Positions 1,769-5,991 of a stretch of 10,346 bases of DNA are shown in pieces; position 1 is the stretch's first letter; every line of letters begins with the position of its first letter. The notes under the pieces are model-generated. The model was given only the letters and a program-made list of their open reading frames with translations. It was not told the DNA's origin and searched no databases. The stretch lies in assembly GCA_022865545.1 (NCBI GenBank), contig JALHTA010000122.1, forward strand, positions 1-10,346, written 5' to 3'. The stretch comes from Actinomycetota bacterium. Lineage in GTDB: Bacteria > Actinomycetota > Humimicrobiia > Humimicrobiales > Humimicrobiaceae. The translations under genes were made by a program, and so were the position numbers.

Positions 1769-2878
1769 TTAGGATATACTTATTGGCATAAGCAGGTATG
1801 TCATGTCTTTGTTTTTTTCGGAATTTATTAGTATTGGTTTTAATGGTTCCTCTATTGAAAATATTATGTTTTTGTCGTCCATCATCATTATCCCATCAAT
1901 TAAGAAATCTGGGTTAAATGATATTTCCATATTTTCTTCGCCGTAGGAAACTTCGAAATCTTCACTAGAGCTTCCGATTTCTTTTATATCCATTGTTACA
2001 ATTATTCTGCCTTTTTCTATTATTAGTTTTATGGGAATATTGTCTTGCGAGATCGATGATATCCTGCGCACTACTTCGAGTATTTTTTCTTTTTCTATTA
2101 TTATATTGTGTTTCATTGCCTCGGGAAGAAGTTGTTTATATTCCGGAAATTTTCCTGATAGAAGTCTTGATATTATTATGTTTTTTATTTTGTCTTCTTT
2201 TTTTAAATAAAATGCTATTTGGTTTTCTTCAAGTATTATTTCCAGATCATATTTTTTAAGGTCGTTTTTTATAATACTGTCGAGTACCCTTGCCGGGACA
2301 ACAATTTTTATATCGTCGTTTTTATTTTTTAGTTTTTCTTTTATTATTGCCAGCCTATAGCTGTCTGTTGCAACCATGGTGAGGTTATTATCTTCCATTT
2401 CTATTAGTATTCCAGTTAGTATTGTCCTGCTTTCATCTTGTGAAACCGCTCTTTGTACCTTTAAGATCAGTGTTTTAAATTCATTTAACTGGATTTTTAT
2501 AGGATTTTTTATATTAGTTTCTGGAAATGCAGGATATTCTTCGAGTGATAGTGTGTTTATATTAAAGTTTGCTTTACCGCTGGATAAGAGGACCTGGTTT
2601 GTTTCTTTATTTAGTTTTAGTGTTATTTTTGATTCATTTAAACTTTTTAATATATTTATAAGTATTTTAGCAGGCACCACTACTTTACCTTTTTCTTCAA
2701 TTTTTACATTTATTGTTGTTTTTATGCTGGTTTCAAGATCTGTACTAAAAATGTTTAAATCTGAATCAATATCCAAAAGAACGCCGCTTAATATATAAGA
2801 AGAAATTTTTGGATTAATTGCCTTGCTTGAAAATAGTATTGCGTCAAGTAATTCACTTTTTGTGGTTTGAAACTTCAT
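1769..2878 (-). CDS. dnaN: DNA polymerase III beta subunit (sliding clamp)
   Basis: The beta clamp encircles DNA as a dimer and tethers polymerase III and other partners to the replication fork. The 369 residues match the usual 365-380 and cover all three clamp domains. Motifs: MKFQ at the start, ESRTILTGI around 149-157, ATDSYRLA at 170-177, GKFPEYKQLLP at 242-252 and the C-terminal YLLMP at 361-365, which forms part of the peptide-binding pocket used by clamp partners. An AGAGG Shine-Dalgarno (2884-2888, minus) lies 5 bases before the ATG. It is separated from dnaA by a 303-base AT-rich spacer, so it probably also has its own promoter. recF and gyrB, frequent downstream neighbours, are absent here. 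Confidence 0.97.
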   Translation of the reverse strand: MKFQTTKSELLDAILFSSKAINPKISSYILSGVLLDIDSDLNIFSTDLETSIKTTINVKIEEKGKVVVPAKILINILKSLNESKITLKLNKETNQVLLSSGKANFNINTLSLEEYPAFPETNIKNPIKIQLNEFKTLILKVQRAVSQDESRTILTGILIEMEDNNLTMVATDSYRLAIIKEKLKNKNDDIKIVVPARVLDSIIKNDLKKYDLEIILEENQIAFYLKKEDKIKNIIISRLLSGKFPEYKQLLPEAMKHNIIIEKEKILEVVRRISSISQDNIPIKLIIEKGRIIVTMDIKEIGSSSEDFEVSYGEENMEISFNPDFLIDGIMMMDDKNIIFSIEEPLKPILINSEKNKDMTYLLMPISIS

Positions 2879-3181: not shown

Positions 3182-4546
3182 CTAAGGAGATTTTTTAATC
3201 CTATTGGTGATCTCCTGCATCTGCATATAAACATTTCTATCTTTGGTAATAAGACCCGCTATTTTAGACACAGCATAAATAACAGTAGTGTGATCCCTGC
3301 CACCAATAGCCCTTCCTATTTGTGGAAGAGAACTACTTGTGAGCTCCCTGGCAAGATACATAGCCAACTGGCGCGCATGCGAAATAAACTTATTTCTTTT
3401 ACTACTTAAAATATCATTAATAGGTATAGAAAAAAATCTTGATACTTCTTTTATGATTTTTTGTATGCTGATTTTATATTCTTTATCCTCAGGAAGAATG
3501 TCCTTTAAGATATTCTTCGCTGTATCAAGATCAGGTTTTGAGTTAGTAAGCGAAGAAAAAGCAACAACCCTTGTTAGGGCACCTTCAAGCTCCCTAATAT
3601 TAGAGGTTACCCTTGCAGCTATAAGATTTAAAATATCATCAGAAACAGTGAGCCTTTCTCGTTCTGAATATTTTTTAAGGATAGCCATGCGGGTCTCAAG
3701 GTCCGGGGGTTTAATATCAGTAACAAGACCCCACTCAAAACGAGACCTTAAACGCTCTTCAAGGGTCGCAATACTCCTTGGGGGGCGGTCGCTTGAAAGA
3801 ATGATCTGGCGGTTAGTATCATGAAGAGCATTAAATGTGTGAAAAAACTCTTCCTGGCTGGCTTCTTTTTCTTCGAGAAACTGTATATCGTCCACAAGTA
3901 ATATATCATTATTTCGATAGCTGTTTTTAAAACTACTTATATTTTTATACCGCAATGCATTAATAAAATCATTTAAGAATTTTTCAGCAGAAACATATTT
4001 TACTGTAAGGTTTGGAAAAAACTGTTTTGTATACTGGCCGATTGCATGCAATAGATGTGTCTTGCCAAGACCAACCCCCCCATAAATAAAAAGAGGGTTG
4101 TAGGTCTTACCAGGGTTTTCACATACTGCAAGAGAGGCAGTACACGCAAAACGGTTACCGCTCCCGACAACGAATGTATCAAAAGTATATTTTGAATTGA
4201 ATAAAACTTCCTCAGAATTCCGGTTGTTTGGTTCATTATTTTCATCGATTTCCAAAGGCTCATTATTAAAAAATGAACCCTCTTCTACCTGATCCGGGGC
4301 TTGTGTGATTATTTTGATCTTACAAGCAGCACCGGCAATTTTTTTTGTGGAATTATTAAGCAATCCTAAATATCTGGACTCAAGCCACTCTTTGGCAAAT
4401 GAACTTGGAACAGAAACAGTTAATATGTTTTTTTTTAAAGACTTAGGAGATATGCTTTCAAACCAGGTTTTATATGTAGGCAGATTTATATTACTTTTTA
4501 TATCTGTAAGGATGTTTTCCCAAATACTGTTGATCTCACCATTCAT
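3182..4546 (-). CDS. dnaA: chromosomal replication initiator protein DnaA
   Basis: DnaA is the AAA+ initiator that binds DnaA boxes and melts oriC. The 454 residues show all four domains: domain I at about 1-80 with the WFESI and FAKEWLESRY elements, an acidic Asn/Glu-rich linker at about 82-115, the AAA+ core, and DNA-binding domain IV at about 355-454. Walker A is GGVGLGKTH (156-164), Walker B LLVDD (216-220), sensor I SSDRPP (251-256), box VII LEERLRSRFEWG (262-273), and sensor II NIRELEG with Arg318. The domain IV signature GRAIGGRDHTTVIYA is at 411-425. The gene begins 9 bases after the ATPase gene and has no visible Shine-Dalgarno before its ATG, which suggests translational coupling to that gene. 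It ends in TAG. Confidence 0.98.
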   Translation of the reverse strand: MNGEINSIWENILTDIKSNINLPTYKTWFESISPKSLKKNILTVSVPSSFAKEWLESRYLGLLNNSTKKIAGAACKIKIITQAPDQVEEGSFFNNEPLEIDENNEPNNRNSEEVLFNSKYTFDTFVVGSGNRFACTASLAVCENPGKTYNPLFIYGGVGLGKTHLLHAIGQYTKQFFPNLTVKYVSAEKFLNDFINALRYKNISSFKNSYRNNDILLVDDIQFLEEKEASQEEFFHTFNALHDTNRQIILSSDRPPRSIATLEERLRSRFEWGLVTDIKPPDLETRMAILKKYSERERLTVSDDILNLIAARVTSNIRELEGALTRVVAFSSLTNSKPDLDTAKNILKDILPEDKEYKISIQKIIKEVSRFFSIPINDILSSKRNKFISHARQLAMYLARELTSSSLPQIGRAIGGRDHTTVIYAVSKIAGLITKDRNVYMQMQEITNRIKKSP

Positions 4547-4555
4547 ACAACAATA

Positions 4556-5404
4556 CTAAATATTATTTGAATAATATTCAAGGTATTTCAAACCTTTTTT
4601 AGACAATTTTCTTTTTCCTGAACTATCAGAAGAAAGCAATTTATTTTTTTCTAGTAACATTAGTTCCCTATAAGAGGTTGAAAGGCTAAAACCTAATTCC
4701 TGGCCAATTGTCGAAGGGCCGGCTTCTTCAAGCTCAAGGATAAGAAAGAGGATCTTTTTTTGTCTTTCAGTAAGGATCTCATTATTAAGTTTTTCAAAAC
4801 CCTCTATAGAAAGCTTTTTTTCGATTTCTTCCGGGCTTAACCGGGGACCTTCAGGAATTGCGGCATCCTCAAGAGAAGAAAAACCATCTTGTCCGGGTGA
4901 GCCGATTTTTAATGAAATAACCGTTCCCTGCCGCATATTATCAGAAATATCTATTATCCCGCCGGAAAAAGTAATGGTTTCTTTAACAATTGGAAGTCCG
5001 GACCCCACACCTCTTATATATTGTTTCATGGTCGAGGTTGCCGAAGTATATCCTGGAAGCATTGCTTTTTCCTTATCATCAATTCCAGGCCCCTGATCAG
5101 AGACCATAATATGGTTGCCTTCAGACATAATGGATATTGCGATCTCTTTAAATTCTGCATGAATTAGGTTTTCAATGATCTCCCTGATAATAGTATATGG
5201 TATCTTGCCCCCCATCTCATGTGAAAGATTATAGGTTTTTTGTGATGTATCATTAATAAAATCTGCTATGTTTTCATATTTAGAGTCTATTACCCTGGGG
5301 ATACTTCGCATATTATCATAGAGGGCTATCCTTACAGGAATAAAAAAACCTGCCTCTTTCTGGGCGGTTTTGCTTTTACTTTCTGCAATAGGAGCATTTT
5401 CCAC
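4556..5404 (-). CDS. GHKL/HATPase-domain protein with C-terminal winged helix, upstream of dnaA
   Basis: I do not recognise a named family for this 282-residue protein. It has a Bergerat-fold ATPase: N box around REIIENLIHA (74-83, Asn79), G1 box DQGPG (103-107), G2 region RGVGSGLPIV (131-140), and GT at 160-161. A linker follows (about 170-205). Residues about 208-270 look like a MarR-like winged helix: TERQKKILFLILELEEAG, a helix-turn-helix around TIGQELGFSLSTSYREL, then a basic wing. No HisKA/DHp phosphoacceptor helix, receiver domain or membrane segment is visible, so it is unlikely to be a classical sensor kinase. It resembles an anti-sigma-type ATPase fused to a DNA reader. The start is GTG at 5404 without a clear Shine-Dalgarno; the next in-frame Met is residue 32. 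It is the first gene left of oriC and is followed by dnaA after 9 bases, so a role in initiation or dnaA expression is plausible but inferred. Confidence 0.85.
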   Translation of the reverse strand: MENAPIAESKSKTAQKEAGFFIPVRIALYDNMRSIPRVIDSKYENIADFINDTSQKTYNLSHEMGGKIPYTIIREIIENLIHAEFKEIAISIMSEGNHIMVSDQGPGIDDKEKAMLPGYTSATSTMKQYIRGVGSGLPIVKETITFSGGIIDISDNMRQGTVISLKIGSPGQDGFSSLEDAAIPEGPRLSPEEIEKKLSIEGFEKLNNEILTERQKKILFLILELEEAGPSTIGQELGFSLSTSYRELMLLEKNKLLSSDSSGKRKLSKKGLKYLEYYSNNI

Positions 5405-5448
5405 AATAATATTTATGTAAATTAAGTATTATAAAATTATATAATAAG

Positions 5449-5478
5449 ATTATACGTATAGAGTTCCGTATTTTTCAC
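5449..5478 (-). promoter_or_regulatory. Candidate promoter for the ATPase-dnaA transcript
   Basis: On the minus strand a perfect TATAAT (5454-5449) is preceded after 18 bases by GTGAAA (5478-5473), four of six matches to TTGACA. It would start transcription about 35-40 bases before the GTG of the ATPase gene. The surroundings are so AT-rich that other -10 elements are possible. Confidence 0.4.
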
Positions 5479-5499
5479 TACCCTTCCACCAAACTTAAG

Positions 5500-5508
5500 T
5501 TATCAACA
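5500..5508 (+). promoter_or_regulatory. DnaA box, one mismatch (TTATCAACA)
   Basis: TTATCAACA differs from TTATCCACA only at position 6 (C to A), the same change seen in the other weak boxes of this window. It lies near the candidate -35 of the ATPase-dnaA promoter, so DnaA bound here could also affect dnaA expression. Confidence 0.5.
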
Positions 5509-5608
5509 GGTTTATAATAATATGATAGCTAGGAAAAAGCTACTATTTTATACAAACAACCAGGGATTTTAACAAGCCATGACATACAAGACAGTGATAT
5601 TTTTTAAG

Positions 5609-5617
5609 TTATTAACA
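5609..5617 (+). promoter_or_regulatory. Weak DnaA box (TTATTAACA)
   Basis: TTATTAACA fits TTWTNCACA except at position 6. It sits 12 bp start to start before the first perfect box at 5621, in the same orientation, so DnaA could bind the two side by side. Confidence 0.4.
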
Positions 5618-5618
5618 T

Positions 5619-5642
5619 GTTTATCCACACCTGTGGATAAAC
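5619..5642. promoter_or_regulatory. Perfect inverted pair of DnaA boxes
   Basis: TTATCCACA (5621-5629) and its exact reverse complement TGTGGATAA (5632-5640) are 2 bp apart. Matching bases extend the arms to 11 bp each (5619-5629 and 5632-5642). These are the only consensus DnaA boxes I find in the window and mark the likely core of oriC. Confidence 0.9.
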
Positions 5643-5678
5643 TGGTTGAAAACTCCGGGAGATTTTGAAAAGTACCAC

Positions 5679-5726
5679 TATATAATTTCTAAAAAATATA
5701 TTACTATTTCAATGGTAAAATAATAA
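5679..5726. other. Candidate DNA unwinding element
   Basis: Only 5 of 48 bases are G or C. The stretch lies on the rpmH side of the DnaA box pair, separated from it by a short G+C-rich patch CTCCGGGAG (5653-5661). Box cluster, GC patch, then AT-rich DNA resembles the B. subtilis unwinding region. I could not recognise a clear DnaA-trio repeat. Confidence 0.45.
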
Positions 5727-5770
5727 GAGAACAGGTGTTTGAGGACATGCCTAATTGAATAAGAGAGTTC

Positions 5771-5799
5771 TTGATATATAAAAGATTAAAATGTATAAT
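5771..5799 (+). promoter_or_regulatory. Sigma-70-type promoter of the rpmH operon
   Basis: TTGATA (5771-5776) and a perfect TATAAT (5794-5799), preceded by TG, are separated by 17 bp. Transcription would start near 5806, leaving a leader of about 50 bases before the rpmH ATG. It is the best-formed promoter in the window. Confidence 0.75.
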
Positions 5800-5856
5800 C
5801 TACTACTTAACTGAAAATTTATACTGTAAATATTAATAATAGAGGAATGATTCAAG

Positions 5857-5991
5857 ATGAAAAGGACTTTTCAACCCAATGTTAGGAAGAGAAAAAGGAA
5901 TCATGGGTTTAGGGCAAGAATGAGCACAAAAGCCGGAAGGACAATACTCTCTAATAGAAGAAGAAAAGGAAGAAAGCGGCTTTCTGCTTAA
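5857..5991 (+). CDS. rpmH: 50S ribosomal protein L34
   Basis: A 44-residue, strongly basic protein that begins MKRTFQPN and continues through [19 protein letters not shown] and [11 protein letters not shown], the full L34 pattern. L34 is a small component of the large ribosomal subunit. The ATG has an AGAGGA Shine-Dalgarno at 5841-5846, spacing 10. It is the first gene of the right-hand operon and rnpA follows after 22 bases, the near-universal rpmH-rnpA pairing. Confidence 0.98.

Follow-up and report, generated by a model that had tools for sequence, protein, structure and literature searches.

YabA, Hda, Soj/ParA and SirA are regulators of DnaA or of replication initiation, and we know of no DnaA regulator, these included, that is built as a GHKL or winged-helix fusion. 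GHKL domains act as ATP-gated clamps in MutL and gyrase. C. diphtheriae DIP2311 (PDB 3lmm), which we take to be a COG2865-like regulator, joins a GHKL domain to a winged helix; to our knowledge, regulators of this type are not linked to dnaA. In the CapK/CapS system, a GHKL kinase and a winged-helix DNA binder are encoded upstream of, and control, the next operon, and CapK is described as a sensor of single-stranded DNA (PMC13373217). These are two proteins with STAS domains, tied to immune operons rather than to dnaA (PMC13373217).

Here we describe a protein in which a GHKL domain and a winged helix share one chain, encoded beside dnaA on a 10,346-base contig (‘the window’, to which all window coordinates refer) from the fragmented genome of an actinomycetote that, judged by the names of its homologues, is of the Humimicrobium/Hydromicrobium type. 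A first-pass annotation of this DNA had proposed that the gene, lying between oriC and dnaA, might link energy state to initiation. The observation is right, and stronger than was claimed; the interpretation is right in outline, its translational coupling part being local to the window's group.

Protein architecture and comparison with known families

The gene (4556..5404, minus strand) has a GTG start and encodes 282 amino acids, comprising a HATPase_c/GHKL domain (residues 22-167; 4904..5341), a variable linker (residues 168-210; 4775..4903) and a MarR-type winged helix (about residues 211-282; 4559..4774), all on the minus strand. Pfam HATPase_c matches residues 70-167 with 43.4 bits, and the catalytic domain is present in 68/68 family members. 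An AlphaFold2 model built from a 68-sequence alignment (mean pLDDT 84.6, pTM 0.57) displays both domains, the winged helix being recognized by profile and structure comparison as well, and a low-confidence linker in which pLDDT falls below 50 at residues 173-186; at this pTM, the mutual placement of the two domains is left unfixed.

Conservation was counted across 183 distinct homologues. The N-box glutamate E75 is kept in 181 sequences, and N79, D103, G105 and G107 each in 182; G132, G134 and G136 also belong to the GHKL domain. In the winged helix, R246 is kept in 175 and G229 in 176 of the 183. This pattern fits the earlier description of an ‘ATP-sensing DNA-binding protein’, as far as residues can indicate. 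One Bacillota copy (locus L215 of genome G500, 3729-4694) has alanine in place of E75, and may bind ATP without hydrolyzing it. Copies in Coriobacteriia-type genomes (L126-L140) lie in longer open frames of 338-524 amino acids, in which the two domains are matched as separate stretches, or the first domain alone is matched.

No Pfam model spans the full length of the protein, and NCBIfam offers no full-length family and none at cut-off among the best 25 of 52 matches. A literature search of titles and abstract openings, with bioRxiv outside and few subscription papers within its reach, found no description, in agreement with the annotation, whose author knew of no named system with this arrangement. 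Comparison by hhalign with three profile sets (histidine-kinase HATPase_c, RsbW/SpoIIAB and PF13749) places the family nearest to the histidine kinases (probability 99.0, E 2.2e-18), with 78.1 for RsbW/SpoIIAB. The only GHKL proteins among the best 50 VIA-align matches are DIP2311 and SpoIIAB, a result that excludes no other family.

Histidine kinases share the catalytic domain, but possess a DHp/HisKA domain with a phosphoacceptor histidine, which is absent from the Pfam matches of the window protein and from the best 25 of 30 Pfam families matched in 68 members, and lack the DNA-binding domain that the dnaA-linked family carries in the same chain. A hidden phosphoacceptor was considered at the H-box-like ‘SHE’ of residues 61-63 and rejected, as H62 is histidine in 48 of 183 homologues; the annotation of a GHKL ATPase without a phosphoacceptor domain stands. 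Anti-sigma kinases of the SpoIIAB/RsbW/RsbT type differ by the absence of a fused winged helix; their HATPase_c_2 model matches two of 68 family members, weakly (best E 0.002), and the dnaA-linked copies are absent from the PF13581 matches of 10 carrier genomes (E<=1e-8). COG2865-like proteins have a HATPase_c_4 profile unlike that of the dnaA-linked family (hhalign probability 2.4, 13 PF13749 proteins) and an N-terminal AlbA/Schlafen-type domain, where the window protein has about 20 residues before the GHKL domain and no Pfam match of that type; PF13749 matches in the same 10 genomes (E<=1e-8) likewise do not include the dnaA-linked copies. MarR proteins have the same type of winged helix but as a stand-alone unit dimerizing through its own flanking helices, whereas here it is C-terminal to the GHKL domain. 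We call the family new because each known family tested fails at least one defining feature and no DnaA regulator known to us is so built; the domains are familiar folds, from which the function is inferred.

Phylogenetic distribution and linkage to dnaA

A scan of one genome per species returned 329 stretches encoding relatives, of which the best 80 were kept. Their record titles name Actinomycetota (Humimicrobium, Coriobacteriia, Thermoleophilia, Hakubella and others), Bacillota and Armatimonadota. The next gene on the same strand is dnaA in 79 of the 80, and in the remaining locus (L090) the contig stops inside the GHKL gene. We also searched 538 whole genomes of the three phyla, partly overlapping with the 80 loci, for the gene at any position, each sampled set taking the phylum label of its centre genome. 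The family is carried by 160 genomes, in 159 of which the gene immediately precedes dnaA and shares its strand; one is undecidable at a contig end, and in none does the gene lie elsewhere.

Among 246 Actinomycetota genomes, 97 were matched at 1e-10, 96 of them by the family and one (G102) by another GHKL fragment only; five such other-GHKL places, scoring at most 44 bits and including the sole match in G102, were left out of the counts. Adjacency to dnaA was established by coordinates for 69 of the 96 and by fetched loci for 20, while one (G242, locus L114) adjoins a dnaA fragment at a contig end and six adjoin dnaA across the record start, provided that the chromosome is circular, as judged by contig ends for five and by loci L122 and L220 for G064. 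Armatimonadota carry the family in 38 of 43 genomes, 37 adjoining dnaA (six of these counted as adjacent with overlapping stop-to-stop frames of the two genes) and one, G292, at a contig end. In Bacillota, 26 of 249 genomes are carriers, with dnaA adjoining in all 26. The window's class has the gene in 32 of 40 genomes, and cultured carriers include Rubrobacter xylanophilus (G049) and Cryptobacterium curtum (G064, one of the six spanning the record start). In the six sampled genomes whose record begins at dnaA, the gene closes the chromosome record, a position that may explain why it was overlooked.

A search of 14 carrier genomes down to 1e-6 gave scores of 342.7-379.7 bits for the family member and no more than 43.7 for the runner-up among GHKL matches, a gap indicating that the gene is single-copy there and sharply set off from other GHKL proteins. 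Nine sampled genomes lack it in Actinomycetota families otherwise having family matches. Seven of these (G178, G197, G057, G032, G018, G027 and G037) gave no dnaA either, so that their assemblies probably lack this locus, and an eighth (G016) gave a weak dnaA match alone (1.1e-51). The ninth, G053 (L242), is the one clear absence, with an intact dnaA and no GHKL gene. The gene thus appears to be core yet not indispensable, G053 representing an apparent loss and a natural case of dispensability.

Neighbouring genes were compared in 176 distinct loci with both genes on one strand, near-identical loci having been merged. Of the 112 loci long enough to show it, 111 have dnaN behind dnaA; rnpA, yidD or yidC is divergently upstream in 147 of 155. 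The GHKL-dnaA pair is intact in all eight loci in which none of these three was found beside it, namely L129 and seven of one group (L107 being the only one with Thermoleophilia in its title). L129 (G198) has a rearranged origin region, with dnaN on the other strand and yidD-yidC-jag beyond dnaA, and the pair is unbroken there too. The gene is therefore linked to dnaA rather than to the entire region. The survey of homologues that the annotation had suggested accordingly extends the linkage to three phyla, and with 159 of 160 copies beside dnaA and none elsewhere, an accidental location is rejected. Nor do Pfam, or the best 25 of 52 NCBIfam matches, point to a known unrelated family.

Trees of the GHKL protein and DnaA (162 loci after merging near-identical ones) both place the Armatimonadota in one clade (36/36), and a single clade takes in 19 of the 27 Bacillota in the GHKL tree and 25 of them in the DnaA tree; we read this as mainly joint inheritance of the two proteins. 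Distance co-variation over 106 loci, similarly merged, gave partial correlations with the GHKL protein of 0.34 for dnaA, 0.47 for dnaN and -0.08 for yidC; as co-variation with dnaN exceeds that with dnaA, no co-evolution specific to DnaA was seen.

Carriers and non-carriers in Bacillota also differ in YabA (PF06156), which scores above cut-off in none of 26 carriers and in 12 of 20 non-carriers (20 of the 223 without a family match; Fisher p 3e-6, kinship not corrected). Weak matches below cut-off number three in carriers and one in non-carriers. The contrast, uncorrected for kinship, fits a gene that takes on the control of DnaA in lineages lacking YabA, and is compatible with this rather than proof of it.

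The origin region and translation of dnaA

On the minus strand of the window, the GHKL gene is followed by dnaA (3182..4546; TIGR00362, 556.6 bits, cut-off 343.9), dnaN (1769..2878; TIGR00663, 256.4 bits, cut-off 137.65), a DUF2520 protein and a partial panB-like ORF; the plus strand carries rpmH, rnpA, yidD, yidC, jag, mnmE and the start of mnmG (panB-like, rpmH, rnpA and mnmE being assigned by eye). The DUF2520 and panB-like genes (1-1675) stand behind dnaN in place of recF and gyrB, the former starting 93 nt past dnaN, and DUF2520 has the same position in 16 loci of the window's group. No Rfam model matches the window.

The non-coding stretch that separates the GHKL gene from the divergent rpmH (5405..5857) is the probable oriC, coinciding with DnaA boxes and the GC-skew minimum. 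It contains two perfect DnaA boxes, TTATCCACA at 5621..5629 on the plus strand and its inverted partner at 5632..5640 on the minus strand, placing the gene between the probable oriC and dnaA, as annotated. In 69 loci searched with TTWTNCACA, the 900 nt upstream of the GHKL gene contain 190 boxes, the gene itself two and the following 150 nt two; at this stringency the upstream 900 nt of six loci are free of boxes. A weak, single DnaA-box-like sequence, TTTTCCACA, covers the GTG start codon of the GHKL gene (5397..5405, plus strand), possibly reflecting feedback by DnaA, or chance.

A promoter-like element (5516..5552, minus strand), consisting of a TATA-rich -10 sequence TATAAAAT followed by TAGTAGCTTTTT, occurs about 126-173 nt upstream of the GHKL gene in the window and eight of 17 near relatives searched, and could be a promoter or an operator. 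Counting k-mers in the upstream regions of six clade groups yielded no general winged-helix operator; the counts recovered mainly DnaA boxes, together with AT-rich words in the window's group, and masking of DnaA-like words left a few clade-local ones. A dyad in Armatimonadota was discarded as an operator, being close to the coding anchor and probably inside the coding sequence.

dnaA begins after a 9-nt spacer (4547..4555, minus strand) without a Shine-Dalgarno sequence, exactly as first annotated, and spacers are likewise short in the window's group. The junctions of this group (4544-4560 in the window) mostly show a TAATATT-like spacer and no Shine-Dalgarno sequence. The further suggestion that translation of dnaA depends on the GHKL gene holds up only within this group, where coupling is plausible: a Shine-Dalgarno-like sequence precedes dnaA in one of 22 of its loci, against 43 of 52 in other lineages. 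In the same group such sequences precede dnaN in 17 of 19 loci and yidC in 12 of 15, and are scarce for yidD (1/16) and DUF2520 (3/17) as well; the GHKL gene of the window has none itself. Because dnaA has a Shine-Dalgarno sequence elsewhere, and yidD and DUF2520 also lack one, coupling appears local and not what conserves the pair, and we reject it as a general mechanism outside the window's group.

Possible roles at the start of replication

We favour, with about even confidence, an ATP-dependent DNA-binding regulator, probably a dimer, whose synthesis is tied to that of DnaA through a promoter in the origin region and which in turn acts on this region. The gene and dnaA would be co-transcribed from this promoter; by taking up ATP, the GHKL domain would toggle the winged helix between a form that binds DNA and one that does not, and the near invariance of the N-box glutamate suggests that hydrolysis is perhaps also involved. 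The winged helix would bind in or close to oriC and the promoter of dnaA, and the outcome would be a tuning of dnaA expression, of access to the origin, or of both. Such control of DnaA or initiation is also the role of YabA, Hda, Soj/ParA and SirA.

A partner of DnaA resembling the anti-sigma-factor kinases (SpoIIAB/RsbT-type), which would bind or phosphorylate DnaA while the winged helix anchors it at the origin, appears unlikely, given a GHKL profile closer to histidine-kinase catalytic domains than to RsbW/SpoIIAB (99.0 against 78.1), the weak HATPase_c_2 matches in two of 68 members, and co-evolution over 106 loci that is not specific to DnaA. We consider it improbable that the protein instead structures the origin or senses the state of its DNA, as a GHKL clamp or a CapK-like sensor of single-stranded DNA gating the unwinding of oriC, with little part in dnaA transcription; the concentration of DnaA boxes on the gene's far side from dnaA (190 against 2 and 2 in 69 loci) and the clamps of MutL and gyrase speak for this role; against it, Pfam recognizes no GyrB/MutL-type transducer domain. 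Least probable is a regulator of other genes that happens to share a transcript with dnaA, perhaps so that its dosage tracks replication or growth rate. A winged-helix protein may have targets anywhere in the genome, and G053 tolerates the lack of the gene; yet linkage in 159 of 160 carriers over three phyla, with the pair intact in differing neighbourhoods, is hard to account for unless the gene is functionally tied to dnaA or the origin.

This uncharacterized gene, which keeps its position across many bacteria of three phyla, probably encodes a regulator of replication start that has gone unnoticed. More tentatively, the ATP-switched regulator favoured here may represent an ancient, undescribed class of initiation controller, encoded with dnaA in at least three phyla, including Bacillota lineages without YabA, that reads nucleotide state or single-stranded DNA at the origin and feeds back on dnaA and oriC. 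The finding bears on the control of DnaA in bacteria outside E. coli and B. subtilis, and turns the vague question of what controls DnaA in these phyla into one about a testable ATP site and DNA-binding domain, for which cultured carriers are available.
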